Source: Cunninghamella blakesleeana (taxonomy: Eukaryota > Mucoromycota > Mucoromycetes > Mucorales > Cunninghamellaceae). Taken from it: a DNA stretch of 64,000 nucleotides. Shown here in pieces: positions 11,239 through 31,023 of this stretch (position 1 is its first letter; the number at the start of each line of letters is the position of its first letter). Under the pieces are notes generated by a model. The model was not told where the DNA came from and did no database searches. It saw nothing but the letters and a program-made list of their open reading frames with translations. The position numbers were made by a program, and so were the translations under genes. The stretch is taken from NCBI GenBank assembly GCA_017871115.1, contig JAFCIZ010000008.1, forward strand, positions 930,001-994,000, read 5' to 3'.

Positions 11239-13553
11239 ATGTCTAATATTTATGCCCTTGAACCGCATACAAAGTAAATATTTTATAGTAATAATATTAT
11301 TAATAATGAATACATAAATATAATATATATATCATTTTTATTTATGGTTTTTATTTCATTTTTTAATATTTTCTTTAGTGCCAAAGTTATTTTACATACA
11401 ACAAAAGGCGATATAGAAATAGAACTATGGGGAAAAGAAGCACCAAGAGCTACACGAAACTTCATTCAATTATGTATGGAAGGCTATTATGATAATACTA
11501 TATTTCATCGAATTATACCAAATTTTATCGTTCAAGGTGGTGATCCAACAGGCACTGGTCATGGTAAAAAATAGAACTAACAACACCTTGCTTAATAAAT
11601 TAACATGTATATACCTAATATTAAGCTCTATATTATTACTACTGTTGTTTTTATTATTGTACTATTTAAGGTGGTGAATCTATTTACGATGGTGAGTTTC
11701 CTGATGAATTTCATTCGCGATTAAGGTTCAATCGCCGTGGTTTAGTTGGTATGGCAAATACTGGAGAAAACGATAACGGTAGTCAGTTTTTTATTACTTT
11801 GGATCGTGCTGATGAACTTACAAAAAAACATACTTTATTTGGAAGGGTAAAACTTTAATATCTCAAATCACCTTTGTTTTTTTTAAAAAAAAATAATCAT
11901 ATCAATGCTATATTTATTTTTTACATGTAAATTAGGTTGCTGGGGACACTTTATTTAATGTCATGAAAATGACAGAATTAGAAGTTGATGACGATAATCG
12001 ACCATTATACCCACCTAAAATAAAAACCACTGAAGTAGTTATCAATCCATTTGATGATATTGTACCAAGAATCACCAAAAAGGAATTATTAATTGCTCAA
12101 CAACGAGAGCGGCAAAAATTAGAGGAATCCAAACCAAAAAAAGTCAAAAAAGAAAAAAAGTAAGGATATATATGTATATATGTTTTTGGATAAAAAAAAA
12201 AAGTACTTTAATGCGAAAGAGAATTATATCAGACTTATTAACATTTGGTAAATATTTCAATAGGAAATTAAACTTGTTATCTTTTGGAGAAGAAGCTGAA
12301 GAATTATCACCAGAATCAACAAAAACAACAAAGACAAAAATGAAAAGTAGTCATGATTTTTTGGATGAATCTACTGATACAACTGCTATACCTACGGAAC
12401 AAAAAGATATTTTAGAAAAACAATTCATAGATCCAGAACTAATTCCATCATCATCATCTACAGAGCATAAATCAACATTAAAAGACAATCATGAATCCAA
12501 TACCAAAAATAAAAAATCAGATCAAAATATAATACAGAAATCATCAAAACCCATTACTACGCCAAAAACGCTGTAAGTACACGTATTTATTATTATTATT
12601 ATTATTTAATTACTTGTATCAACCTAGAACTGTAGTAACATTTTTTTTTTTTTTTTCAATCATATTTTTAGCACTGCAAAGGAAGAAATTGAAAAACTTA
12701 AAAACGATATTAAAAAAATAAGTAGTCGACAAGATGATGATGAAAATGATAATAAGAATAATGAAAATCAAAAAAAAATATCATACTTACAACAAGAGCG
12801 AGAAAAGTATCAAAAGCGTGGAAAAATTCAAGTAGGCGGTTTGAAAGCAAGAAAACGGGGAAGAAATAATGATGATGATGAGGTAAAGAATTATATTATG
12901 CCAATCTTATATATAAAAATATATGGCAATAAATAAATAAATTATAAGAAATTAATAAACTCGAAACATATATACATATATATACATAGACATTTTCCAA
13001 ACTCATGGCATTCCAAAACAAACTTTTATCAACTGAAGAATCGGCACCTTTACAAAAAAAGGAACTACCACCATGTAAATTGCACGATATTCCCGGTTGT
13101 GAATCTTGTCACGATTTAGTAGATGACGAATTTGAAGAAGAACAAAATCCTAATGCTTGGATGGCTCATCGATTGGTTTTTGAAAAGGATAAAAAAGGAA
13201 AAGATTTAATGCAACGTAGAGAAACAGTAGATGATTATGTTGTTATCGACCCAAGAGAACGAGAAGCAAAGAGTAAGCAAGAAGAATATGAAAGAAATTA
13301 TAATAGCAAAAGTAGCGGTAATAAAGATAAACGGGATCATCATCAACAACAACGACGATATAATGAAGAAGAGGAAACATCGGATCGTAGAAGATATTCA
13401 TCTTCATCATCGAGAAAGGATCGAGATCGTGATTATGACCATCGAAGTAACCGTGATAGAAAAAGATCAGTGGAACGAGATGACAGTTATAAAAGAGATG
13501 ATAGAAAACGATCAAGAGGTAGTGATGATCGTCATTATAGTCGTAAGCATTGA
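11239..13553 (+). CDS. CWC27: Spliceosomal cyclophilin CWC27
   Basis: Cyclophilin-domain splicing factor of the activated spliceosome. Exons 11239-11273, 11379-11563, 11671-11846, 11936-12159, 12264-12572, 12672-12882 and 12990-13553 join to 567 aa. The start [11 protein letters not shown] is the family N-terminus. The cyclophilin domain (about residues 10-165) has [19 protein letters not shown] and NGSQFFITL; the active-site Trp of cyclophilin A is replaced by Glu ([13 protein letters not shown]), as in other CWC27 proteins, so isomerase activity is doubtful. [10 protein letters not shown] is the conserved CWC27 motif that follows. The tail holds an acidic/Lys-rich coiled region, [12 protein letters not shown] and [10 protein letters not shown] (both conserved in the family), then a long Arg/Asp/Ser-rich stretch. 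Divergent from VPS23. Confidence 0.95.
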
Positions 13554-13823: not shown

Positions 13824-14651
13824 ATGAGTATAATACAGAAAAGTAAATTTGATATATGTAGCCTCTTTTTACATTTTTTTTATGTAACATTTAAAACATA
13901 GTATTGCCATTTTTAGTCAATCACAGTTTAGAGTATGATTAATCCATTAAAAAAATAAATATTTCATAATATATGATAAAGTAAACAATATAGTAGTATC
14001 ACTTTTATTAAAATCAAACATTTTCAAAAAGAAAAAAAATCAACTTTTAGTAATGAAAGCATTCTCTTGGTATAAATAAATTTTTCAATCCATATACTAA
14101 AGAAAGTAAATTTCACATTCAACTTTTTTTATTTTCAGTTATGACCCTATTATAGATTAGTGATGAATTCTTTTTATAAATAAAATAGAAGAACTTTATA
14201 TAGTTAATAGAAGATTGATATGATTTTATACGCACATACGTGGATATGTATATAGAAGATGAATTCATTTACTTTTCACATTCTCTTCATTTTTTATTTA
14301 TTTATATATTTATTATCAACATGTAACAAATCACTTATGACTAGTCCATTTTTTATCTTTCAGTACTCTTAATTATATATTCTTTTAACAAAGAATATAG
14401 TCAAATGATGAAAAGCAGCCCTTTGGCTTGTGCATTTGTTGGTTTGCTTTTTTATTTGTAGTATAAATTATCATATATTTGCATTCAGGTGTCAAAAATT
14501 CTATTTTTTTTCTCTTTTCTATATTTTCTTCATAATATATTTTTATATCTCTTTATTATATATACTTTTATTATATACTGATATTTTTTTAATATCATTT
14601 AAAAAAAAATATTTATAAAATAAAAAGGATGCAAATGTTTTATTTTTATCT
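13554..14651. other. Intergenic, about 1.1 kb, no gene seen
   Basis: Between CWC27 and the first kelch copy. It contains the A/T hairpin listed separately. The rest is AT-rich without a convincing frame. The exact TAGTACAA word found upstream of other cluster genes is absent here. Confidence 0.55.
13735..13820. repeat. A36/T37 inverted homopolymer repeat
   Basis: A run of 36 A (13735-13770), a 13-base spacer (taatgttcaccaa), then 37 T (13784-13820). As a transcript from either strand it would fold into a long perfect A:U hairpin. It lies about 180 bp past the CWC27 stop. It could be a termination or 3'-end element, or only slippage-prone sequence. Confidence 0.9.
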
Positions 14652-15544
14652 ATGCTTACCTTATTATTTTATTATATAAAATTTATTACTTGCCAACAAG
14701 TATCAGCAAGAAAAAATGCAGGTTAAAAGAATAAAATCACAGTATTATAATTACCATTATTATTTTTTACTTAGATATTATATATATATATATATATATA
14801 TATTAACTTGCTGCTATTTTTTTTTATTGATAATCATAATCCGTATATATATTAGGGTGTGCTTTGATTTCAAATAAAATATTTTGTTATAGTGGATATC
14901 TAGTCGGTAGTTTTGACAGTCTAAATGTTCAACATATTGGCTTGAATCTAACTCAATTACGCGATATATCAAATTTGGATAATTCAAAAGTTCAATGGAA
15001 TATGGTGACCGATATTATCAATAGTACTCAAAGGACAGTACGATCACGTTCATATCAAGGTCTAGCTGTAGCGATATCAAATAATAGTTATACTATGTTT
15101 GGTGAGGTGCATAATCATAGTATTATTGATACAGAATTATTTTTAATCTATAATCCTCAAACATATACTTGGAAATCCTTACAAATCGATTCTAATATTA
15201 AATGCAACGTAAAAAAAAAAGAAAAAAAAAATATTAATTTTGTTTATTCTAAAATCTCCTTTTTTTTTTATTACGAAATTGTGATAATAAATTCCAGTAA
15301 TACAATCGTTAACATGGGTTATGATATTTTTTGGATTTGGGGTGATGAAAGTTAGTAAGTGATTTACATAAAAATAATACTCTTTTATGTTTTAATACAC
15401 ACTTTTATATATATATAAAATATCTTTATAGGCTTTGTTAATAAACTAATATACAACTAATGATGTTGTAAATAATACAGTGAAAACCATACCCTTCCAA
15501 ATATTGCTCAAATATATGATTATAAAGCTGCAACGACCACCCTT

Positions 15545-15584
<40 letters not shown>

Positions 15585-16294
15585 CCGATATCTATATTGA
15601 AACTTATCTTGTGATGATTTTTGGCCATATTGATCAAAATACTCCTGCCGCTAGTTTAAGTGTGTTGGATATTACTGATCCATATCAACCAAGGTGGACA
15701 ACATCATTCTCAAATTTTCCTACTAATTCATCAGATACTGTTAATGGATTTTGTCGTGAATATATAGTAGCCATAGTTGTTCCCTTATTATAAGTAATAA
15801 TAATAATAATAACAATAATAACATTCATTTCACGTTGTTTTACTTTTTTTTTCCTTAGTTTTTTTTCCCTTTATTTATATTTATTATAGATCGTTATTGC
15901 CATATTCATGTATTTTTATAAAAAACGAAAACAATATAATAAATTACTAAAAGTCCCATTTGTATTAGAGGAATCAAATTCAAGTTTACAAATTCAAGGG
16001 ACTGATTTTGATGGTTCTGATAATACAAAATTTGCCAAGTTGACTATCAACCGTGAAGAAGGAGGTTATAATAAAATTCATGATGACTACCCAGCTGATA
16101 ATTTTTGCAAACCACTTGAAAATAATGCTTATAAAAACGAACCTGAAGACGAAAAAGTATAAAGCTATAATAAAATATGCAATGATCAGCCCGTTAATGA
16201 TATTTGTAACCCAATTAAAAACATCAATGATATAGATCCTCAAAAGGGTGAATATGTAAAATCAACAACAAACCATTCATTTTCCATAAATTAA
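14652..16294 (+). pseudogene. Kelch-repeat type I membrane protein, copy 1, truncated and broken
   Basis: Relative of the intact copy at 26697-28995. Recognisable pieces: a signal-peptide exon 14652-14721 (ATG giving MLTLLFYYIKFITCQQ), a kelch exon 14856-15208 (SLNVQHIGLNLTQLRDI, QTYTWKSLQ), exon 3 from about 15298, exon 4 from 15481 (HTLPNIAQIYDYK), the juxtamembrane exon about 15584-15793 and the tail exon 15890-16162. Breaks: exon 2 ends in phase 0 but exon 3 needs phase 2, so splicing as in copy 3 would hit a stop; the donor after exon 4 reads GC instead of GT; exons 5-7 of copy 3 (three kelch-bearing exons) are missing, replaced by an (AT)n tract; the membrane exon ends in TAA; an in-frame TAA at 16160 cuts a tail that otherwise reads on to 16294. 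Reading through some introns stays open, so a short product cannot be excluded. Confidence 0.8.
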
Positions 16295-17124
16295 TACCAG
16301 TATATATATAGACAATTGGATGGTATTATTTAGTATATCTGAAGGAAAAAAAATTATATTATTATTTTTAATCAAAATACCTCTTTATAGATTTATCATA
16401 TAATATCTGCTTTTATTATACTTATTCGTGTATTTGATTCCACACTAAATTTAAATACATACGAAATACTATATTATTAATCTTTAACCTTTAAAAATAA
16501 TCCTTTATTCTTTTCTTTTCTCCATGCTCATCTTATAATAGCCTATTAGTATGTTTAATTTTTAATATTAAAATAAAAAACAAATTTATACATCTTTAGA
16601 TCAGTTAGTAAACTTTTTAAAATCAACACCAGGACTATATTATTAAAGTAAAAAAATAAAAAGATAAGGAATAAAAAATGAAAGGAAAGGAAAATATATA
16701 TATATATATTCATTTTCTTTGTGTTTTTAAAAAAATATATTTCCCCATTTTATTTGTAAAAATAAAGAAAACTTTTTTTATTGTTTTATTTAATATATTA
16801 GCAGCTTCTATTTTTTTTAAGTAAATATGAAATAATCTATTTAATTTTTTTAGATGTGTGAGACTTTGTAGTGGTTGATATGTTAGAAAATAATATTTTA
16901 GAATAATAATTGTTGACTTTTTTTTTTAAAAAAAAAAGGATGTTTTTTTTAAGATGTTATTTATTATTTTAATTACATAATATTGCATTTTTATTTGTAG
17001 AGTAGAATAAAAAATATTAATATTATACAAAAAAATATAAAGAAAGTATAATAGATACAAATATATATTAAATAATAATAACAATCAAGATAATTTTTAA
17101 GTTAAAATTAATTTATATGAAAAA
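16295..17124. other. Intergenic, about 830 bp, no gene seen
   Basis: Convergent 3' region between kelch copy 1 (plus) and Kre9/Knh1-like gene A (minus). AT-rich, with a T10/A10 junction at 16918-16937. No gene seen. Confidence 0.55.
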
Positions 17125-18160
17125 TTAATTTTCTATTGATGGTTTTATATAGTTTGCCTTTTGATTATTTTTATCGTTGGCATTGCCAAACGGTTTACAA
17201 AAAGTATCGGTAGGATAATCATCGTGGATTTTATTAAAACCTTCCTCTTCATAGTCAACAGCTGGCTTGGAAAGTTTTACACCTTCCATACTACTGAAAT
17301 CTGATTCTTTGATTTTTAACCTTGGATCCAATTTATCTATAATAAATGTATCTTTCGGCAATTTATTTTTGTTCCTTCGTTTATAAAAATATATAAATGT
17401 AACCTATATTAATATATATTTATATATATATCAGTACTAATTACCATATTTTACAACTATTTTTATGTAATTATGTATGTGTACATATATGTATATATTA
17501 CTAAAAATATAACCACAATTGGAATAATTATAGCTGCAATTTTTCCACCGCTTAAACTTTCATTATCATTTTCAGATGGTTGTGAACTATTAATAGAGTT
17601 AAAGGTAGGTTTATTACCATTACTAGTAGGGGAGATAGGTGTGGTAGTAGAATTGCTGGAAGATGTACTTGCATCAGGTGCAGTAATGGTGAAAGGACCA
17701 GCATAGACTTTGTCGGTCCCAAGACCAAATACGAAGACGTAATCGTTGGCTATTATTAAAAATAGTAATAAAAGTATATAAAGTTATCTTTATCTAAAGA
17801 AATAAAAAAATCAAACTCTATATATGATATTTTTTTTTTTTTTTTTGATTTATTTGATTTGATTTGTTTTTTTTTTTATTTTTTACCTGGAGGAATGTCA
17901 ATAGGAATTTTCCATGAGTAAATTAGATTTTTAGCTGGGATGGTATCAGCAATTTGAAGTATGGGTTGTAAATTAGTGCCGTGGCCTTGACTTAACAAAA
18001 GACCATTAATTGTATCAACAGTAGGGTTGTACCAAGCGATCGGAACATAAGTCCCCGCTTTATAAACAGTACCTCTTATAGGAGAAGTTATAGATATGAT
18101 AGGCTGTTGAGCAGAGGTAACGGAAATGAGCGCGGCAATAATTATAACGGAAAGCTCCAT
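17125..18160 (-). CDS. Kre9/Knh1-domain single-pass membrane protein A
   Basis: Cell-surface protein, 266 aa, exons 17887-18160, 17502-17749 and 17125-17403, all in phase. A signal peptide (MELSVIIIAALISVTSAQQ) precedes one Kre9/Knh1-type beta-sandwich (ITSPIRGTVYKAGTYVPIAW ... LIYSWKIP ... DYVFVFGLG ... AGPFTIT), a domain best known from yeast cell-wall beta-1,6-glucan proteins. A Ser/Thr/Asn-rich stalk with many N-x-S/T sites follows, then a transmembrane helix (GGKIAAIIIPIVVIFL joined to VTFIYFYKRR by a phase-0 intron), and an 83-residue cytoplasmic tail with LPKDTFIIDKLDPRL, NKIHDDYPTDTFCKP and YIKPS. The tail and membrane helix match those of gene B and of the kelch genes nearby. Two GTAGTACAA words lie 117 and 189 bp upstream. 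Ligand unknown. Confidence 0.85.
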
Positions 18161-18705
18161 AATAATATTGTATACATATGTATGAAATGATATACGAAAG
18201 TTAAATTAAAGAAGTAGAGAAAAAGAAGAATGATAATATGATCCTACTTTTGAAAATAAAAAGGTTAACATAGTAAGTAGTACAAATTTAATTCTTTTAA
18301 CAATTTTATTTTAATCACTCCCACCCACTCGCTCCCTTTTTCGATTACGTAGTACAAATAACATGCAGATATGTTTTTTTCTCAACACATTTAAATATGT
18401 TTGTTTTTTTTGTTTTTTTTTTGTTTTTCTTTTTATTTTAATATCGTTTTAATAATAATAATAAAAAAGAAGGATCTCTAAACTTTTCCCTTTTTTCTCT
18501 ATTGTTTGTCAAATATTTGAAAGAAAAAATGTAACTAGAATAAATGACATATATATTAAATAATAATAACGATAATGCATTTGAATTTATACTAAATAAT
18601 ATTACCAATTTTTTTTTTTATTCCATATTAATATTTATTGTAATTATTTTTAAAAAATATAAACTAACTAAAATAATAAATAAAAATAAATCAAATAGAA
18701 ATAGC
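18161..18705. other. Divergent intergenic region with paired GTAGTACAA words
   Basis: Lies between the starts of Kre9/Knh1-like gene A (minus) and the beta-trefoil-like gene (plus), 545 bp. It contains GTAGTACAA at 18277-18285 and 18349-18357 and a C-rich patch at about 18318-18337. An AT-rich in-frame extension upstream of 18706 looks non-coding. Confidence 0.5.
18277..18357 (+). promoter_or_regulatory. Two GTAGTACAA words upstream of gene A
   Basis: Exact 9-base word at 18277-18285 and 18349-18357, 117 and 189 bp before the gene A start and within 430 bp of the beta-trefoil gene start. The same pair occurs at similar spacing upstream of gene B. Regulatory function is inferred only from the recurrence. 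Confidence 0.4.
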
Positions 18706-19227
18706 ATGCATCACGTTGTATTGACTCTGGTCGTTGTTTTTCTCACTACTTACCAAGTTGCGTTAGCAGAGGTACTCGCTAACGGCAATTACAGAATTTA
18801 CCATGGCAACTATCAAGTGCCAAGTACCCATCGCTATTTTACTGCTGAGCCTGATGCTCGTCAAGGGCGTGTAAGATTACATCCTAAGGATGATACATCG
18901 CAGTTCCAAGTTTGGCAACTTAAGAATTACAATAATGATCAAGTTACTCTTAAATCCGTCGGTGCTAGTGGCAAGTATTTAACTCCTGGACGCTCTGGAG
19001 CATTACCTGGTGCTTATGTTGGTGTCTCCAACAAACCACAACGATTTAACATTAGTAAGAAGGCTGGTGGACCATTCACTAGCTACCAATTGGCCTATCC
19101 TAAGTCTGTACACAACAATACTCTTGTTGTCTCCTATGACTCTAATGGAGAAGAACCTTACTATGTCAATTTTAAGAACTTGGATGTTGAAGGATCCCTT
19201 CAAGCATGGAAATTCGTTCGCGTTTAG
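18706..19227 (+). CDS. Secreted beta-trefoil-like protein (R-type lectin-like)
   Basis: Intronless gene of 173 aa. A clear signal peptide (MHHVVLTLVVVFLTTYQVALA) precedes about 150 residues that look like a beta-trefoil: three similar segments, with Q-x-W near the end of the first (FQVWQLKN) and of the last (LQAWKFVRV), as in ricin-type carbohydrate-binding domains. Segment starts include GNYRIYHG and GKYLTPG. A fungal beta-trefoil protease inhibitor is an alternative. No second, enzymatic domain is present. Its composition stands out: codons such as CGC, GGC, GCC and CTC are common, unlike neighbouring genes, which suggests high expression or a different origin. An in-frame AT-rich extension back to 18544 is rejected because the signal peptide starts at 18706. 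It sits between the two Kre9/Knh1-like genes. Confidence 0.8.
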   Translation: MHHVVLTLVVVFLTTYQVALAEVLANGNYRIYHGNYQVPSTHRYFTAEPDARQGRVRLHPKDDTSQFQVWQLKNYNNDQVTLKSVGASGKYLTPGRSGALPGAYVGVSNKPQRFNISKKAGGPFTSYQLAYPKSVHNNTLVVSYDSNGEEPYYVNFKNLDVEGSLQAWKFVRV

Positions 19228-19758
19228 AAATACGCATTGATCGTGTTTTAAAATAAAATTAAAAGAGCAAATATCCACAGAGATATAATGCTATTTATTT
19301 AAAAAATAATATAAAAATAGTCAAATATTTATATTTTAAGCTAAATACTTTTTATTTGCTTATTAAACAAAATAAAAGAAAAAAAGGAATTTCTAATGTA
19401 ATTATGAGACACAATTTATGTGGCGCAGTTGAAAATACTTAATTTATTTTTTGCCATTTTTAATATTATTGAGTTACGTGAACCCATAAAAAAAATTAAG
19501 GTTATAAATATGGTTGTATATTGATAAGATATATTCAAGTGCATCAATTTTACAAGAAGTAAAAAACTGAAATAATAATCATAAACAAATATAATAGTAT
19601 GATAATAAATTGTTATACAATAAATTTTACAAACAGGAAAAAGCTCTTATTTAAGATCAAAAGGTAATATTATGTAAATAGGTATTTATTTTCAGGGTTG
19701 AAGAGAGTTTATTACTACGATATACGCAATAAAAATGCAATAGATATATATATAAAGT

Positions 19759-19791
<33 letters not shown>

Positions 19792-19844
19792 GGTACTTTT
19801 TTATATATATTTTATTTTTTAGTTATGATTAATTTATGCAAATA
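19228..19844. other. Intergenic, about 620 bp, no gene seen
   Basis: Convergent 3' region between the beta-trefoil gene and Kre9/Knh1-like gene B. It contains an (AAT)n tract at about 19762-19790. No gene seen. Confidence 0.55.
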
Positions 19845-20943
19845 TTAGTATCTTGCCGATGGTTTTATGTATTCAACATTTTGGCTATTTTTTTCGGACG
19901 TATTCTCAAACAGTTTACAATATGTATCTGTAGATTGACCATCATAGTGAAGCTTATTAACTTTTTCTTCTTCTTTATTAATAGTTTGTCTGTCAGATTT
20001 TGAGGTATGAGTACTACTGAAATCCGTATGGTAGTTCATGTTTGATGTTTGTCTATCAGATTTTGAGGAATGGATACTACTGAAATCCGTATGGTGGCTA
20101 AGATTTAATCTTGGGTCTGATTTATCTAATACAAATGTGTCCCCCGGTAATTGATTTTTTTTTTCCTTTTTTTTATAAAAATATAAGAATATGGCAATAA
20201 CCACCTACGTTAAAAAAGAAGGAAAGAAAATAGAAAAAAAAAAAAAAGAGTAAGATGAATAACCGTATTTTGAACAATATTTAATTTTATTATTATTATT
20301 CTATAGATATATATATGCCGATATATTACCAATATTAAAATTATAACTGGAATAACTATAGCCGCAATAATTCCACCACTCAAACCGCTATCATTACTGT
20401 TATTGATAGAGACTTGCATACCATTATTACCGTTATTAATTGAGCTGGAAGAAGGGTTAGAAGCACTACCAGTTGTAGAGGAGGAATTAGAGTTGTTAGT
20501 GGATGAATCAGAAGAGATGGTAAAAGGGCCAGCGGTAGCTTGACCGGTGGTTTGACCTAATATGAAAAAGTAATCATTACCTACATTTTAAAATAATAAT
20601 AAAATAAGTTTTCTTTAACCAGAGAAAAATATACATTTTATATAGCGTATTCACTTTTATTTTTTTTACCAGAAGAAAAATTAGCAGGAATCTTCCAGGT
20701 ATAAGATAGAGAGTAAGCAGGCACCATACCAGCAATTTTATCAATGGGTTGAATATCAGCGGTAGTTCCTCTACCTAAAACAATACCATTGATGAAATCA
20801 ACAGTAGGATTGGCCCAAGTAATCATGGCATCAGAGCCAGCCTTCAAAATACTACCTTGTTTAGGGTAAGTTACAGCAGCAATAGGTTGCTGCGCAGAGA
20901 CAACGGAGATGAGAATCACCAGAAAAATAATAGAAAGTACCAT
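19845..20943 (-). CDS. Kre9/Knh1-domain single-pass membrane protein B
   Basis: Paralogue of gene A, 294 aa, exons 20670-20943, 20330-20580 and 19845-20204, in phase. The first exon has exactly the same length (274 bp) as in gene A. It has a signal peptide (MVLSIIFLVILISVVSAQQ), a Kre9/Knh1-type domain (VTYPKQGSILKAGSDAMITW ... SYTWKIPANF ... NDYFFILG ... AGPFTIS), a Ser/Asn-rich stalk, a membrane helix (LSGGIIAAIVIPVIILIL joined to VVIAIFLYFYKKKE across a phase-0 intron) and a tail of about 108 residues. The tail begins LPGDTFVLDKSDPRLN, contains a 17-residue tandem duplication (HTDFSS..SKSDRQT twice), then NKLHYDGQSTDTYCK and ends near EYIKPS. Its membrane helix is nearly identical to that of kelch copy 3. 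Two GTAGTACAA words lie 111 and 166 bp upstream. Confidence 0.87.
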
Positions 20944-21053
20944 AAAAATATAAAAGGAAGAAAAAAGAAATTTTTTTTATTAAAATAAGATGTAAATTAA
21001 AGTAGACCAGCCGAAAGAGTAAGTGGGATAAAATAAAAAAAAAGGCTTATATC

Positions 21054-21117
21054 GTAGTACAAATGTAATTTATATATTCCTAATGATCCGCTTTTCTATA
21101 TTAGTAATGTAGTACAA
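21054..21117 (+). promoter_or_regulatory. Two GTAGTACAA words upstream of gene B
   Basis: Exact copies at 21054-21062 and 21109-21117, 111 and 166 bp before the gene B start, mirroring the arrangement upstream of gene A. Confidence 0.4.
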
Positions 21118-22630
21118 GCAAATAATATTTTGAAAATAACAATTCAATTTTTCTTTAAATCAAACTTTCTATCTTGTTTTTTTTTTAAAAAAAAAAAAAC
21201 ATACAGCTATAGAAGCATAGCACGATATAATAATTATTCATTTAATAATAATTTAATTTATATACTCATTTAATTCAATCAATAATAAATCAACTGAGTA
21301 GAAATTTTTATACACGGTTAATATAGTTTTACTCTTATGTAGGTTTATTTTCATAGAGTGGTCTTTAGATATGACTGATTAAATTAAAGTATCACGTCTA
21401 ATTTAAAAAGTTAGCAATCTCTAAATATAATGTACCAATTAACAAGGTTTTAGAAGGTCGCTAATAGAAACTTATTCAGCATGTAGGCAATATTTTCATA
21501 AGATAAACCTGGGTATTAAACAAATAAGATTTTGTTTAACTTGAAGTTACTTCTATATCCCAATCAAGGAATACTCAAGACCTACTTTAGAAAAGTAGTG
21601 AATATTTAAAATAAAATTATGTTGACGGTTTAGTATATAGTCAGGCCGACTGGTCTATTATTTGTCAAAACAATTGAATAAAGATATTAAAGAGTTAGCA
21701 TTTGAGTGTTTTTTGCTTTATTGTTATTAGTTTCTGATTCTAGAGAAAGGCTTTAGCCTCCATATACAATATAGTATTTCAAACATTATCCGGGATTAGT
21801 GCCTAATAAAATTATAATAAAACACATTTTAGATTTATTTTCACTAGCAATAAAAAACAAATTAACTTTGTTTTTAGAGTAATCATCACTTATTTTTTAT
21901 CAAGCTATTTAAAAAATTAAACACCTCTATTTTTTGTTTATATAATCGCAGGTTGAAAATCATCTAGAGCAATTATTTATTATTATTATTATTATTATTT
22001 ATTTTAGTGGTACGTTAAGTAATAACTCTCTTCTTTTCATTTCATATCTTTTTGTTTTTTAAAAAAAAAATATAAAATACAAAAGTTGATTTGAGTTTTA
22101 CATCTGAGAATGAATATGGTTCAAGGTAGATTGGACTTTTTACTTTTTTTTAGGTAATATAAAAAACGTAAGGTCTACCCTTTTTGGAAAAATGTGGCTG
22201 TAGTTGTAGTCAATTTATTAAAAACTAATTTTCCAGAACAGCAAAGTCAACTATAAATAAGCAATGGTGGTTTTTTTAAAAAAAGGGATAAAGTAAAATA
22301 AATTAAAATTCTAATACAAATATATTATGATTAGTTTTTTAATTGTACGTAGAAGGATATAACTGTATAGAAGGCAATTAAATTCTTTTTAAAAGGGTTT
22401 AATAAAAGCAAAATTTTCAATTTTGTAGCTCTATGTTATTCCGAATAAAACCTGTGTTTATCCTACATATATACATACCATCTCCATTACATTTTTTTAT
22501 CAATATAACGAAATTAATACCTCCATACTTTTCTTTTTTTACTTTTATTTTTTATTATCCACTATATACTAACAAAGGACCAATCAAAATATAAAAAGTA
22601 GTTTTTTTAGTTTAAAGATTTTTTCAGTGA

Positions 22631-22638
22631 TAGTACAA
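22631..22638 (+). promoter_or_regulatory. TAGTACAA word upstream of kelch copy 2
   Basis: Single exact copy 129 bp before the old start codon of the decayed kelch copy 2. Probably a remnant of the same promoter element. Confidence 0.3.
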
Positions 22639-22766
22639 GTAAATCCGTGCTTGTCAACCCAATGGATCCAAATATTGAAATTTTCGTACATTTCTCTACT
22701 GTTTGTAATTCTTTCATTTTACAAAATAAATTATACATATATATTAAAAATAAAAAAATAAAAAAA

Positions 22767-25083
22767 ATGTCAACAAATCATTTTTTCTACTATTATTATA
22801 TTATATTATAGGATTCACTTATTGTCAGCAAGTATTAGCAGGACCAAATGCAAGTTGAATGGATATAATAATATCATATTTTTAGGATTTTTTTTTTCTA
22901 CTATATATACTAATATATATATATATATATATATATATGTTATTACTATCTTTTTGATGATTACAGTAAAATAAAATGTGCTTTGCGTTAAAAGAAAATG
23001 TTTTGTTACGATGGATCACCAATCAATTGCAAAATAAATATAAATTTTAGTACATCAGTTTTGATTTAACTCAACTAAACCAAATAATAGATCTAGGTGA
23101 TTCAAAATTTCATTTAGATAGAGTTACAAACATTATAAGTAGTGCCCAAACGACAGTACAACTTTGTTCATATTAAGATAATACTGTAGTAGAACTTGAT
23201 AATAGTAGCGCTGTGTATGGTAACAATAAAAGTAAGACTGGTCTTGTTGAAACGAGATGGGGTTTATATTATAAACCTTAAATGTACACTTGGTAGTCTT
23301 TGTAAGCTGGTATTTGTATTAATGTAACGTAAAAATAAAATAAAATAAAAGACTTTAAATGCATATATAGTATTTAAGCACTATTTTCATTAAATAATAA
23401 TCCTTCAAATTAATAGGATCCTCTTTCTTGGTATTATTGCCATGATAACTAGTGTTTTTAATGCAAACATTAATATATGAAATGTTATTTTTTGGATATA
23501 GGATGGATAAATAATATAATTGATCTATATGAAAAATATTCATTAACTTTTTAACGTATAGTTTTGCGCACTTACACACATACACACACATATATATATA
23601 TATATACACTTCGACAATAAATTAATATCAATTTATCTGCATTGTAAACAATATAGATCGAAAAATAATCTTCATAACATCATACATATATGAATATAAA
23701 ACTATAGTGACCATCCTTTTTTTTATTTTCAGAGTAATCTGGCAAGTATATATTTTTATCCTCATAAATTATTTATTTTCCTTTTTATTAATATCATTTT
23801 TATTAAAATATTCAAGGCAAACGAGATGAATGCAGTCATTTAAAAGAACACGTCAATGGTAATAGCACATACAGCAATATTAAAACTTGATAATGTTATT
23901 TATGTTTTAGGTAGTACTCTTGGTTATTCAAATGATTAAAGTACTCTAATAATGTCAGTGAAATGAGTAAGTTTCATACAAAATCATTTCAATAATCATA
24001 TGTTAATATCACTGGTAATTCTTTTTCTGCAAAGGTATTCCAAACTGTAACACAATGTAATATATAAATATACTCTAATATGGATATAATTGTGGGGATT
24101 GGTTGTTGATAAATATCATATATATTTATATATTTTACATGTTCAATATTTTATATTTTTGGCTTTAAAAAAATAGTGTACAAATAAAAGCTTAATATTT
24201 ATATATGATGGCGATAATAAAAACAAATAGTTTTTTGTATCAATATATCTATTATTGCGGGTTTTCTTGTTGGAATAATATAATAAATTCCTCTTCATTC
24301 AGTATAGATTCCAAGGTCATAGCTCATTGAAATGTTTTTGGTTATGATAACTATAATTTTAAATTATTGATATTCCTAACCTTCCCAATCTTGTATATAC
24401 CAGAACTGAGCATATTGACAGATATAATAATAGTAATAAAAATAATAACAATGGAAAAGGATATCACCAATTTCTAGTTTTTAACTAATATGATATATAT
24501 ATATAGCTGAAATCTACAATGAAACTTACTTTATAAAGTTATTTAGTTTACTGGAGAAAGAAGACTAGTTACTATTTTAAGTGTGCTAAATATTTTTAAG
24601 TCGGATAATTCCTTTTCCAGGTCTTCCTATTATTAATTCAACCAATGTAGGTAATTGATTTCGTGCTAGGTATATTGTAACTACTATAATAACTTTATTG
24701 CTAATAATAATAATAATATATTAAGCAATGACGATATATATTTTAAAATATTTTACTTATTTTCTCATTAATTTATTTAGAAAAGATTGAAATTGCCGTA
24801 TTAAGGTATAATTACGAAGGGTGAGGTATGAAATATGTATCTCCAAAATATTCAGCGGTAATAGATGGATTAAACTCAAAATTAATTATCAAAGTATATA
24901 ATTTTAATGGTGTTGATGATGTAAAATATACCAAGTTCACTATCGGTTTTGAAGATAGTTTAAATGTAATCATCTTACTGATATTTTTTGTAAATCACTT
25001 GGAAATAAGTCTAACCATGTAGATTGTAATAAAGTTAATGGTAGTAATCTTACTAGTACTTTTTGCAAACCACTACTGATATA
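22767..25083 (+). pseudogene. Kelch-repeat membrane protein, copy 2, heavily decayed
   Basis: Collinear relic of the kelch gene at 26697-28995, recognisable along its whole length: start (ATG TCA ACA, then TAG inside the signal peptide), CQQVLAG-like end of exon 1 at about 22840, exon 2 (SFDLTQLNQIIDLGDSKF, with TAA stops) at about 23045-23330, a piece equivalent to exon 5 at 23815-24065, exon 6 at about 24175-24225, exon 7 at about 24300-24400, the juxtamembrane exon near 24510-24660 (AEIYNETYF) and the tail exon from 24781, which still shows STFCKPL before a stop. Many stops, frameshifts and lost splice sites rule out a full product. Unlike copy 1 it keeps the equivalents of exons 5-7. Confidence 0.85.
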
Positions 25084-25664
25084 AAAGAATAGAAGGTTAA
25101 ATAAAGAAAATCAAGGACTAGAAACTAATTTTTATATAAACCTTCTCCCACTATATAAAATAAAAAAAATAGTTACACTATTATTTGTATTATTTAATAT
25201 ATACGTATCATATATTGCCTTTCATATTATTGAAAAATAATATTAAATCCGTTTCAATTTTACAAAGTGTGATAATAAAATATTGATATTTTAAATAAAA
25301 GAAATACGTTTTCATTATATTTGCTCTCCTTATTATATTTTATTATTAATATAAGGAAAAGCACAATGCACCACTTAGATGAGTAGTGTAACTATTTATT
25401 CTTAGTCAATAGAATGAAAAAATACAAAAAAAAAAAAAAACAAACTAGTTTTTTTGAGGCGCATTGAAAAAAATTAAAATTTAGCGCTACTATATTTTTT
25501 TTATTTAATTTTGTTTATAAAAATATCGAAACAACTATTTTAATTGTATTTATTTTATATATTAGCGTCATATTTATATCGATTTTTTTTTCTTCTTTTC
25601 CTTTTCCTTTTATAAGAAAAGAACAAAAGACGTGTTGAATTTAAAATGAGAAAGCAAATATGAT

Positions 25665-25701
<37 letters not shown>

Positions 25702-26696
25702 AATGTGGCTTTGGGTATGATCGATCCAATTGGAATCAATATCTCAGAATAACAAAGCTTACAATAGATAAGCAATGGATTTTTTTTTTTGAAAAAAATT
25801 AAAATAATTTAATACATAGGTATAAGTATATTATACTTAGCTTGTTTATTTTAGATGTATGTGATTGTATAGTTGGTAATTTAATCTTTTAAAAAAAGCT
25901 TAATAAAAATGTTATTCAAACCCATAAATTTTATATCAAATACTTTATTTCAAAGACTCCATAAATTCTTGCTAATATATTTTTTTCTTTTTCAAAGTAC
26001 GAATATATAATGAAATTAAGTCTTTAACATCGTTCTTTTTTTAAAACAAATACTATGTAATCAAGATGTAAAGGATAGTTTTTAACCATGTATTTTTTCA
26101 GGTCACGTAAGTACACTTATTTTGAATATAAAAAAGTCATACAACTAAAGGTTCCATAGCACTTTTTTGTCCTTTATTTTAATTTTGATAAATTCAACCG
26201 TAATGATGATCGACAATAGGGAGGTTAGTAAGAAAAAAAATCTAGCAAATCTGGTTTTTTCTGCAATTTAAAGTTTCTAGACTTTTTTATTTATTTTTTT
26301 TATTACCATTACTATATAAAATAAAAAAAATAAATATTTTTTTGACTCATTCAATTATTTTATATATTTATATTATATTATTTTCTTTTATTATTATCTT
26401 TAAAATGATACTATGAGGAATAGAAAAATATTTAGGAATGAAAAGTAGTTTTTGGATCTCATTTTTTTTTATCTCCCCCTAGCCTTCTTAATAAAACAGT
26501 AGTACAATTTAATTATAGTTAGTGGCAACTTTGTACTATGGAATCTTTCAAAAGTAATACAGATGATTGCATCTTTCAATTTAAAATCTTAAAAGCTGAT
26601 CCTACTTTTTCTTCACTTCTTTTCCCTTTTTATTTTTAATACTCTTTGCATTTTTATTTTCCTTCTCTTTGTATATAATATTTATATTAAAAAAAA
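25084..26696. other. Intergenic, about 1.6 kb, duplicated 5' flank
   Basis: The segment from about 25620 resembles the 5' flank of kelch copy 2 from about 22090: AATGTGGCT at 22194 and 25702, ATAAGCAATGG at 22256 and 25768, and a TTTAATAAAA-type stretch at 22396 and 25900. It includes a 31-base T run at 25670-25700 and the promoter words listed separately. No gene seen. Confidence 0.55.
26500..26538 (+). promoter_or_regulatory. Inverted pair of TAGTACAA words upstream of kelch copy 3
   Basis: TAGTACAA at 26500-26507 and its reverse complement TTGTACTA at 26531-26538, 190 and 159 bp before the start codon. The same word occurs upstream of both Kre9/Knh1-like genes. Confidence 0.4.
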
Positions 26697-28995
26697 ATGT
26701 CAAAGTTATCCTTTTTATCTACTATTATTTTACTATTCTATTATATAAATTCTATTATTTGTCAGCAATTATCAGCAAGAAGAAATGCAGGTTAAATAGA
26801 GAATTAACAATAAATATGTATTGGTTGATTTACATGTTAATATATAATTATATTAATCTATTACTACCCCTTTGATAAAAATAAAAAATAGGATGTTCCT
26901 TGATAAAAAATACAATATATTGTTTTGGCGGACTCCCAATCAAAGATAGTCAAAGCCTTAATGTTGAGCATATTAGTTTGGATTTAACAGAATTACATGG
27001 TATAACCGAATTGGACGATTCAAAGATCCAATGGAAAACAGTGACCGACGTTCTTAATAGCACACAATCCACATTACTACCACGTTCTTATGTAGGTACT
27101 GCTGCAGTTACATCGGATAACAGTTATGTGATGTATGGTGGTGTTATATCTGATTCATTTTTAAATTATAACCCGCAAACTTATACCTGGAGAACCTTAC
27201 AAGTTGATCCTAATATTAATATTACGTAAAAAAAATAAACATAAAAATAATATAAAGACACCATTTTCTTTATATAGTAATATCTTTTTTCTTTTTATTA
27301 TTATTACCTTGGTAATTAGTAACAGAGATACCCTTGTAAACATGGGAGATGATAAATTTTGGCTTTGGGGTGGGGAAAACTTGTAAGTAGTTCACATTCA
27401 ATCTATATACTTTATATCTATTGACGACTTAATTAACCCTCTATTTGTGATGTTATAAATATTTTAGTCCAAACTATACCGTTCCTATTCCAAATATGGC
27501 ATTTATTTATGATTATAAAACTGTAATGATCATTCTTTTTCATCTGATGAATAATTATTTAAATACTCTTATTTAATCAAATTTTTTATATATGTATTTT
27601 TATTTATGTATTAAAATAATTAAGGCTAGATGGATAAACCAAATTGTTGATAATAGTATACCAATGAGAACAGAACATTCAGCTACTTTGGGTCTTGATG
27701 GTGGTATTTATGTATTAGGTGGTGCCATTAGGTATCCAGGTGATATATTTTATTATAGTAATTTCAGTGAAATCAGAAAGTTTGATACAAAATCATCCCA
27801 GTGGTCTTATTTTAATGCTACAGGTCATCCAGCTTCTTCAAGAGCATCTCATACTGCTACACAATGTAATACATAAATATAAATAAAAGCAACATAATTA
27901 ATTATAGGTTATTGACTTGTATTTTTATATTATCGTATTATTTTTTTCTTTAAAAAAAGTACCAAATAAAAATCAAATGCTTATATATGGCGGTGTTAAT
28001 GCTGATCCTGCCCTTTTGGCTACTAATAATGGTCGATGTAAGTAACTTTCTATTCAATTGCTGTTTTCATTACTGTTGTTGAATTATATTTAACATCTTG
28101 TTTTATTTATATAGCTGCCCCATCCTTGGATTATTGTATTATTTTTGATTATAATACCAATACCTTTCAGAACATTGGTTTTCCTCCCCTTCCTAATTCA
28201 GTAAATATCAGATATGGCCATTTTGGTAATAAAACTAATAATATAAAAAAAAAACTATTGAACACCAATTTATTCTTTATTGAATTATTTTTATACATAT
28301 AAACATATATTATTAATTTTCTATCACCTTTACATACATTTATATATATAGCGGAAATATATAATGAAACTTATATTGTGATGACCTTTGGTTTTGTTGA
28401 TGAAACTAGACCGGCTACTACTTTAAGCGTATTAAATATAACTAATCCAAGTAGTCCACAATGGGTGAGATCTTTTTCAGCACTATCTAATGAAAGTAAT
28501 GCTGACAATACTAATGTTACTGGAGGATTAAGTGGTGGAATTATTGCAGCAATCGTTGTCCCCGTTGTATTTGTAGTATTGGTAAAACATATAAATTAAT
28601 ATATAACAATAATAATAATAAAGGTAATACTAATTTTAAACTATTTCATTTATATAAATATATATTCACTGTAGGTTGTTATCGCAGTAGTCATATATTT
28701 TTATAAAAAAAGAGAAAAGAAAAAGTATAAATTTCCAAAAGATCCATTTGTAATAGATGAGTCGGATCCAAGATTAAATACAAAAGATGATGCTTTCAAC
28801 AATACACTACCTGGTGGATCAAATGAAAATACTGAAGGTAGTCAGACCGCTACCTATATCAAACCAAGTGAAGGAATGGATAATGACAAATATATAAAAC
28901 CAAGCGAGGATAAAGATATATCCTCAATAAAATTAACTGATGATTTTGTCAAACCATCAGAATATATCGGTAAACCTTTTGGGAATGAAAAATAA
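26697..28995 (+). CDS. Kelch-repeat type I membrane protein, copy 3 (intact)
   Basis: Nine exons (26697-26790, 26892-27225, 27320-27382, 27468-27522, 27625-27865, 27960-28037, 28115-28225, 28352-28581, 28675-28995) join in phase to 508 aa. A signal peptide (MSKLSFLSTIILLFYYINSIICQQ) precedes a kelch beta-propeller ectodomain with repeat signatures (IYCFGG, SYVMYGG, FWLWGG, GIYVLGGA, MLIYGG) and W/Y-rich strand ends (TYTWRTLQ, SQWSYFNA). Several N-x-S/T sites suit an extracellular protein. The membrane helix (LSGGIIAAIVVPVVFVVL plus VVIAVVIYFYKKRE) is split by a phase-0 intron. The tail of about 95 residues has FPKDPFVIDESDPRLN and repeats of YIKPSE / FVKPSE. Membrane and tail match the Kre9/Knh1-like proteins nearby. 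Ligand and signalling partner unknown. Confidence 0.88.
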
Positions 28996-29459: not shown

Positions 29460-31023
29460 ATGATAGAAAACTCTGATACTACTAATAACAATAACATTCA
29501 AAAAAGAGGTAATCCATATTTACCTGAAACTTCTTCAAATAAACGCCATGAAGTTTATTTATTAGAAACATCTACATCTCACAATCAGAATACCCTAAAT
29601 AAAACAAATAATAATCTTTCAGATAACACAAAAAACTCTACAACTCAATCAAAGTTACCCCAAGATAGATTTATTTACGGCAATTATGCAAATTATTACA
29701 AGTAAAAGAAAAAATAAAATAAAAGATAACAGTAATAGCAAATAGGTATTAATAATAACTATTTATGTATTATTTTTATTACTATTTTTATTGCTGTTAT
29801 TGCTTTTATAATAATTTTATAGATCGCGAAGAAACACTAATGATCACCACGACATTCGACTATCCTTATTAGAAAAATCAATATTTAAGGATAAAAGAGT
29901 GTTAGATATTGGCTGCAATTCTGGGAACGTTACAATGGTCATAGGTAATGTATATAAAGTTACAATAGAAAAGGAAAGCAACTTTGATTAATTGATTTTT
30001 GCATAATTGATTTTATTTATTTCATTCAAAAAGGAAAATATTGCAAACCTCAGCATATATTAGGTGTTGATATTGACGAACAACTAATTAATAAGGCAAA
30101 CTCTTTATTAAAAACAGTCTATTCATTACAAAAAAATGATGATGATGATGATGATGATAAAACGGAGAACAATAAAATATTAGCCGATATCAATTTTCGA
30201 ACGCATTATTTTCCAAAATCGATGACATCCATGTTTGGATATTTACCTACCGCTACGCCACCTACATTTAAAAGTGATCAGTTCCCTTTTAACATCTCCT
30301 TTAAAGCTGGTAATTGGATAGAAATGGATACGATAGAAAATCAATATGATATTATTTTAGCGTAAGTTGTTTTCTTTTTTTAAAATAATAGCGATAAATA
30401 AATAAAATAATATGACTATGGATAAATGACAAACCAACTATCTTTTTATTATTATTATTTACCTTCCCTTATTATATTCTATTTATATAGCTTTAGTATT
30501 ACAAAATGGATACAGTTACATAATGGTGATCAAGGCATCAAGCTATTTTTTCAGAAAATATACGACTCACTAAGTAATGGTGGGATATTAATCCTAGAAC
30601 CTCAAAACTTTGGAACTTATGGAAAAAGAGCAAAGATGTCAAAGGTATTTATATAAATTAAAATAACAATAACTATGAATGTTACGTTTAAAAACGGATA
30701 ATTAGTTATAACTCTTTATGATTTATTATTATTTTATCATCCTGTTACTCTAGGAAATGAAAAATACTTTAGAAAATATTAAATTAAGACCAGAAGATTA
30801 TCACGATTTTCTAATTAATGAAGTAGGATTTTCTGATTTTAAAAACCTTGGTACAACAAATGCTGATACTAAAGGTATATAGATGAATATAAATAACAAG
30901 TATTTATAGTCATATTATCTTCATCAAGTTTATTAACGATTTGAAATTGATTATTTTATTTTATCTTTATTTAACTTGATATGTATAGGATTTGACAGGC
31001 CGTTAGTTTTATATTTTAAATAG
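29460..31023 (+). CDS. Bin3/MePCE-type RNA 5'-phosphate methyltransferase
   Basis: SAM-dependent methyltransferase of the Bin3/MePCE family, which methylates the gamma- or mono-phosphate at the 5' end of small RNAs such as 7SK or U6. Exons 29460-29701, 29823-29944, 30034-30361, 30491-30644, 30754-30874 and 30989-31023 join to 333 aa. After a Ser/Asn/Thr-rich N-terminus comes FIYGNYANYYKSRR, then SAM motif I (VLDIGCNSGNVT), the acidic binding motif (ILGVDIDEQLI), an Asp-rich insert, and the Bin3 hallmark (FSITKWIQLHNGDQGIKLFF, then GGILILEPQNFGTY). The last exon is only 35 bp (FDRPLVLYFK). The start chosen is MIENS at 29460; an in-frame upstream ATG at 29373 adds only Phe/Leu-rich sequence that looks like a leader. 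RNA target in this fungus unknown. Confidence 0.93.

Follow-up and report, generated by a model that had tools for sequence, protein, structure and literature searches.

Why do surface proteins with unrelated outer domains carry the same membrane helix and the same cytosolic tail? This question is raised by a window of 64,000 nucleotides from the mould Cunninghamella blakesleeana, in which kelch-type genes lie beside two genes with a Kre9_KNH domain (KNH A and KNH B). A preliminary description of this DNA had proposed a membrane-and-tail module common to the two kinds of protein, and the peptides it quoted are all present where it placed them. The 32-Mb genome holds one tail family across three ectodomain classes: kelch, KNH and Psg1-like.

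The intact kelch gene (26697..28995, + strand) was modelled by joining nine exons with GT-AG ends and encodes 508 amino acids. From the N-terminus, the protein consists of a signal-like segment, a kelch propeller, a short stalk, one membrane helix and a cytosolic tail that we call type 1. The propeller scores above the Pfam cut-off for PF24681 (90.1 bits vs 50; E 1.7e-25) and PF24981 (70.8 vs 50), and matches to sequences in the PDB cover it. Exon 8 (28352..28581, +) encodes the last part of the propeller, the stalk and the first half of the helix (GIIAAIVVPVVFVVL). A phase-0 intron of 93 nt (28582..28674, +) splits the helix, and the tail exon (28675..28995, +) supplies the second half, a FVIDESDPRLN box and the units YIKPS, FVKPS and KPFGNEK. 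The putative membrane helix, IIAAIVVPVVFVVLVVIAVVIYFY, was read from the sequence and is followed by the basic flank KKREKKK. An annotated protein of Cunninghamella echinulata (P0003) closely resembles the model and is without a stretch near its N-terminus. No Pfam family above cut-off covers the tail region, an NCBIfam search gave one weak match, to the helix, and no Rfam family reached threshold between positions 13000 and 32000 of the window.

Both KNH genes are on the minus strand and have three exons each. In KNH B (20943-19845), exon 1 (20670..20943) encodes a signal-like N-terminus and most of the Kre9_KNH domain, and exon 2 (20330..20580) encodes the end of that domain, a Ser/Asn-rich stalk and the first half of the helix (GLSGGIIAAIVIPVIILIL). 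A phase-0 membrane intron of 125 nt (20205..20329) follows, and then a tail exon (19845..20204) of a second, type 2 kelch-like kind. KNH B is 90% identical to an annotated relative from C. echinulata (P0001). KNH A (18160-17125) is built in the same order, with exon 1 at 17887..18160 (relatives P0007 and P0008), exon 2 with the domain end, stalk and first helix half (SLSGGKIAAIIIPIVVIFL) at 17502..17749, a phase-0 membrane intron of 98 nt at 17404..17501, and a type 2 kelch-like tail exon, containing NKIHDDYPTDTFCKP and YIKPS, at 17125..17403. The helix junction as modelled here is also found in the annotated proteins P0001, P0003 and P0007; P0008 is annotated with a shorter helix at this point. 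The tail exon of KNH B contains a duplicated unit of 63 nt (19984-20109, repeat D12). This unit is present in more copies in P0001 and in one copy in P0002, so the length of the tail varies between strains.

The N-terminal immunoglobulin-like domain, PF10342, is above its cut-off of 24.6 bits in both KNH A (35.6) and KNH B (36.4). PF05390, to which PMC5872309 assigns KRE9 and KNH1, is absent from the families found at E<=1 for either protein. The earlier label "Kre9/Knh1" is loose, since it is matched in the N-terminal domain only. The aligned KNH domains gave two weak PDB matches. The C-termini of KNH A and KNH B are not of the glycosylphosphatidylinositol (GPI) type, since each chain continues past the helix as a basic cytosolic tail of some 85-110 residues.

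A hidden Markov model (HMM) of the cytosolic tail was built from 18 kelch tails only, and 3960 frames in 260,425 bases of fetched DNA were searched with it. At E<=1e-5 there were 32 rows, which reduce to 24 distinct ones when eight duplicate loci are removed; 18 of these are the training tails. The other six are KNH A (1.4e-14), KNH B (1.0e-11), a Psg1-like gene at locus L019 (2.2e-11), and three kelch genes: L019:5510 (6.3e-13), copy 1 in the window (1.6e-10) and a broken gene at L010b (9.1e-7). A profile trained on kelch tails alone thus recovers more than one ectodomain class, and the claim of one tail on unrelated ectodomains holds in the fetched DNA, the set searched here in place of the Mucoromycota proteomes. 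The KNH A tail is 55% identical (6.8e-29) to a kelch tail exon on another contig (C10:705252).

It could be argued that the resemblance of helices and K/D/N-rich tails is accidental in a genome of 26% GC, and the helix string LSGGIIAAIVVP does recur in an unrelated protein. However, the control tails (L024, L033 and L034) do not show the likeness to this profile that is seen in KNH A and KNH B, none of them appearing at E<=10. Convergence of composition was ruled out for the cytosolic part by these controls and by shuffled sequences, and as an account of the whole likeness its probability is negligible. Caution is still needed for the first half of the helix. P0006, a eukaryotic protein resembling a receptor kinase, has the same string there (GLSGGIIAAIVVPIVV), and the start of the helix may be convergent or widely conserved.

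Single-sequence searches with four tails (limits E 10, 10, 1 and 1), when merged, place the tail at 28 sites in the genome: 24 kelch, two KNH, one Psg1-like and one unexamined (C11:254715). The number is a lower bound because the searches score the best candidates only. Some of the sites are weak by single sequence (0.12 for the Psg1-like one) and were accepted on the strength of the profile or of reading. Kelch identity was assigned from translations and matches in the fetched loci, some by eye; C10:568175 and C5:2846501 were called kelch from an adjoining kelch-family match, and the tail at C11:81120 lies just beyond L015, after the last kelch exon of that locus. The Psg1-like bearer (L019, contig C5) sits among kelch genes. 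Its ectodomain scores 28.9 bits against PF14610 (Psg1; E 1.1e-6), which is below the cut-off of 30.1 and is the reason for the term "Psg1-like". A search of the genome with PF14610 gave five matches, with none above the cut-off. Three were fetched: L035 is another kelch gene bearing the tail, and L033 and L034 are other single-pass genes. Genome searches for WSC and SKG6 returned nothing; as no control rose either, they are uninformative.

Where did the KNH genes obtain this end? A genome search with PF10342 gave 17 matches (14 above cut-off), namely KNH A, KNH B and 15 others, of which 14 were fetched and read and a weak one (C1:5796270) was left out. Eight of these 14 have a hydrophobic, uncharged C-terminus that is GPI-like by hydropathy only (L017b, L018, L020, L021, L022, L023, L027 and L028). 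One, L024, has a membrane helix and an unrelated tail, and the remaining five (L016, L017a, the minus-strand gene of L019, L025 and L026) show neither a GPI-like end nor a helix in the frames read. The closest paralog of the pair is the GPI-like L018, with 62/100 residues identical to KNH A and 51/99 to KNH B. In the KNH tree, A, B and L018 group with support 90/93 and A and B with 86/87. The simplest history is that a GPI-type KNH gene had its end replaced by a kelch end and was then duplicated.

We therefore propose the following, which we regard as likely when taken as a whole. The kelch-type surface family of Cunninghamella would own the membrane anchor and the cytosolic tail, which is built from a helix with a basic stop, a membrane-near box of the form F-hydrophobic-hydrophobic-[DE]-x-x-DPR, and several hydrophobic-x-K-P units (YIKPS, FCKPF, FVKPS). 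KNH A and KNH B would descend from a GPI-type KNH surface gene that dropped its own C-terminal anchor signal and took over the 3' end of a kelch gene, with its helix, phase-0 intron and tail exon; the breakpoint would probably lie in the low-complexity stalk. Duplication of this fusion would have produced the two genes. A more distant form of the tail would have reached a Psg1-like gene, on a different contig, probably in a separate event. The tail itself is most likely a string of short linear motifs read by one common cytosolic adaptor, of sorting, endocytosis or cell-wall signalling. The two KNH proteins may then use the route or pathway of the kelch proteins.

The position of the join bears on the mechanism. 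The preliminary description had explained the shared tail by exon shuffling, and had stated that a phase-0 intron splits the helix at the same point in every case. A script that scored phase 0 only, and allowed several donors per gene, found that 23 of 24 genes offer a GT donor and an AG acceptor at roughly one place in the helix. These are L024 and 22 of the 23 kelch and KNH genes with the tail. An earlier script with fixed anchors had found both sites in 11 of 18. In the gene models the split holds for the intact kelch gene, KNH A and KNH B; it fails in kelch copy 1, where a stop precedes the donor. The Psg1-like gene, which was outside the script, encodes its helix in one exon with no intron there. 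The KNH-type gene at L024:2988-4172 (C2:217988-219172) has a phase-0 intron at the same helix point, followed by an unrelated Gln/Pro-rich tail for which the genome holds no second match at E<=1. The membrane intron thus occurs outside the tail family and is dispensable within it, and the helices of L033 and L034, each within one exon, show that a split helix is not universal.

Under strict exon shuffling, the tail exon alone would have moved, at the phase-0 intron, into a KNH gene whose helix was already split. The recurrence of these sites, in L024 as well, is what such a movement would use, and the likeness of the first helix halves can be convergent, as P0006 illustrates. However, the closest KNH gene, L018, is GPI-like and has no membrane intron, and the KNH domain of L024 is distant from both KNH A (24/100) and KNH B (20/99). 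The first helix halves of KNH A and KNH B also resemble those of the kelch genes, and the Psg1-like bearer manages without an intron in its helix. We consider strict shuffling unlikely. The likeness between kelch and KNH extends to the first helix half, and since one exon encodes both this half and the end of the ectodomain, the join may lie inside the stalk-coding exon. What stands of the earlier proposal is the shared tail family; movement at the membrane intron is not established.

The tail trees bear on direction and on the number of events. In a tree without outgroup, built without P0005, the frame-broken copy 1 or any divergent kelch tail, six KNH and four type 2 kelch tails separate from six type 1 kelch tails with support 100/100, and the KNH tails group together (81/83). 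The rooted tree comprised 18 kelch tails, four of the six KNH tails and the Psg1-like tail, with copy 1 and the kelch tails of the annotated proteins left out. It separates types 1, 2 and KNH from an outgroup of divergent kelch and Psg1-like tails (95/99). Forcing the KNH and Psg1-like tails together costs 13.0 log units (p-AU, from the approximately unbiased test, 0.064), which favours, without proving, separate gains of the tail. Within the ingroup the relation of KNH to kelch is unsettled: kelch stands apart with 81/92, KNH with type 2 has a p-AU of 0.56, and the KNH group itself has support 40/0. A further tree with copy 1, P0005 and three divergent kelch tails leaves the KNH position likewise undecided. 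Because of this, the kelch family is taken as the probable donor from the distribution of the tail.

The opposite direction would start from a membrane-bound KNH/Psg1-like family that had the tail originally, with kelch genes acquiring it later. It would account for the tail on the Psg1-like gene, for the Pfam Psg1 model touching KNH B below cut-off (3.9e-6), and for the separation of the kelch ingroup tails from KNH. Yet kelch genes occupy 24 of the 28 tail places, the divergent tails are all kelch save the Psg1-like one, and the grouping of KNH with Psg1-like tails that it implies carries the cost given above. The KNH alignment, compared as a profile with the ectodomain of the Psg1-like gene, gave no match. 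Passage from KNH to kelch is quite improbable in our judgment.

The proposed transfer from kelch to KNH also has to be weighed against local gene conversion, since tail-bearing KNH and kelch genes adjoin in the window. Kelch copy 1 (14581..16294, +; start taken from direct repeat D2) lies tail to tail with KNH A. It is frame-broken, with a TAA upstream of the membrane-intron donor and a further stop in the tail at 16160-16162, and has a type 2 tail frame at 15890-16159. A heavily decayed remnant of a further kelch gene (22713..25140, +) shares direct repeats D2, D7, D8, D9 and D10 with other kelch copies; its tail piece (24959-25081) reaches only E 3.5 with the kelch-only HMM. Conversion between adjoining tail exons could have kept the tails alike after one old fusion, and an inverted match of 71% links 15847-15988 with 20106-20247. 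However, the best tail match of KNH A is on contig C10 (C10:705252) and not among its neighbours, the tail dS (synonymous divergence) is high, and there is no long near-identical tail tract among the 25 inverted repeats listed of 33. Conversion as the cause is very improbable.

The C10 kelch array itself (L009-L011, 700-723 kb) has tail types that alternate along the strand, in the order type 1 (L009a), type 2 (L009b), type 1 (L010a), broken type 2-like (L010b), type 1 (L010c), type 2 (L011a) and divergent. This alternation suggests duplication of a two-gene unit.

The cytosolic tail is conserved in two other Cunninghamella sets. Identity is 102/109 and 73/109 (22 gap positions) for KNH B, 76/87 and 75/87 for KNH A, and 84/96 for kelch. 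Two further C. echinulata sets each contain an A-like and a B-like protein, and as the contigs of each pair are equal in size (38,812 and 2,728,505), the two genes are probably neighbours there too. Within the C. blakesleeana genome, the ratio of nonsynonymous to synonymous substitution could be calculated for 44 of 45 tail pairs, with dS often saturated; it is below 1 in 43, at or below 0.5 in 28, and 1.05 in one. The 15 tails contain 38 KP dipeptides, three times the 11.9 expected from shuffling (maximum 23 in 2000 shuffles). Constraint and KP excess together fit a tail that binds through short motifs. Outside Cunninghamella, no tail was found at E<=10 in two tail-region searches (500 and 47 candidates) or at 0.01 in a whole-protein search (2063 candidates); such searches reach only relatives that share short exact words. 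P0006 matches through the helix.

This arrangement suggests that different outside sensors plug into one inside partner. A broader reading is that of an exchangeable Mucoromycotan inside tail, with its FhhExxDPR box and hydrophobic-x-K-P units, as a common socket for arrayed kelch, formerly GPI-anchored KNH and Psg1-like ectodomains. The phase-0 helix intron would make the halves modular, in a manner similar to the paired receptors of animals, and one adaptor would read all the tails. In this full form the idea is tentative, possible but doubtful. To our knowledge, the surface receptors of this fungal group are little known. The tail family offers a handle on the partner of some 28 genes in this genome, and its profile a tool to find surface receptors in other moulds.

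Three other genes were seen in passing. Between KNH A and KNH B, a small frame (18706-19227, +) resembles a ricin-B-like beta-trefoil (PF14200 2.8e-4, below cut-off) and appears secreted by eye. A split gene at 29460-31000 (+) looks by eye like a putative S-adenosylmethionine methyltransferase of the Bin3/MePCE kind. On C10, a long frame adjoining a KNH gene (L016:3981-5576) has two zinc knuckles by eye and resembles a retroelement gag.

How does this tail family compare with known systems? KNH A and KNH B share PF10342 with fungal GPI-type Kre9_KNH proteins and are nearest to L018, a GPI-like protein of the same genome; they differ by the membrane helix, by the long tail and by PF05390 not being among their matches. 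The intact kelch gene shares PF24681 and PF24981 with the propellers of kelch/attractin-type membrane proteins. It differs in having no other attractin domain among the best 25 of 27 Pfam families matched, and no family above cut-off on the tail. The ectodomain of the Psg1-like bearer, just under the Pfam cut-off, points to yeast Psg1 (Ykl077w), which is described as Kex2-cleaved and present in the Golgi and in COPI vesicles (PMC5607100). No description of a tail shared by kelch and KNH proteins was found in literature titles and abstract openings, where no search paired kelch with KNH directly. The closest precedent is the CEACAM genes of mammals, in which GPI and transmembrane ends alternate and the transmembrane and cytoplasmic exons are exchanged together (PMC2110893). 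The likeness lies in paralogous surface genes with GPI or transmembrane ends and in the joint exchange of membrane segment and tail. The difference is that the CEACAM ectodomains belong to one immunoglobulin family and their tails carry immunoreceptor tyrosine-based activation or inhibition motifs (ITAM/ITIM), whereas the ectodomains in this fungus are unrelated and the tail has no Pfam family above cut-off. Joint exchange of membrane and tail exons is thus known, and what appears to be new, as judged from those titles and abstract openings, is a fungal tail family common to proteins with kelch, KNH or Psg1-like ectodomains. With unrelated outer domains attached to a single tail, a fungal case would extend the CEACAM-like logic to another group of organisms.

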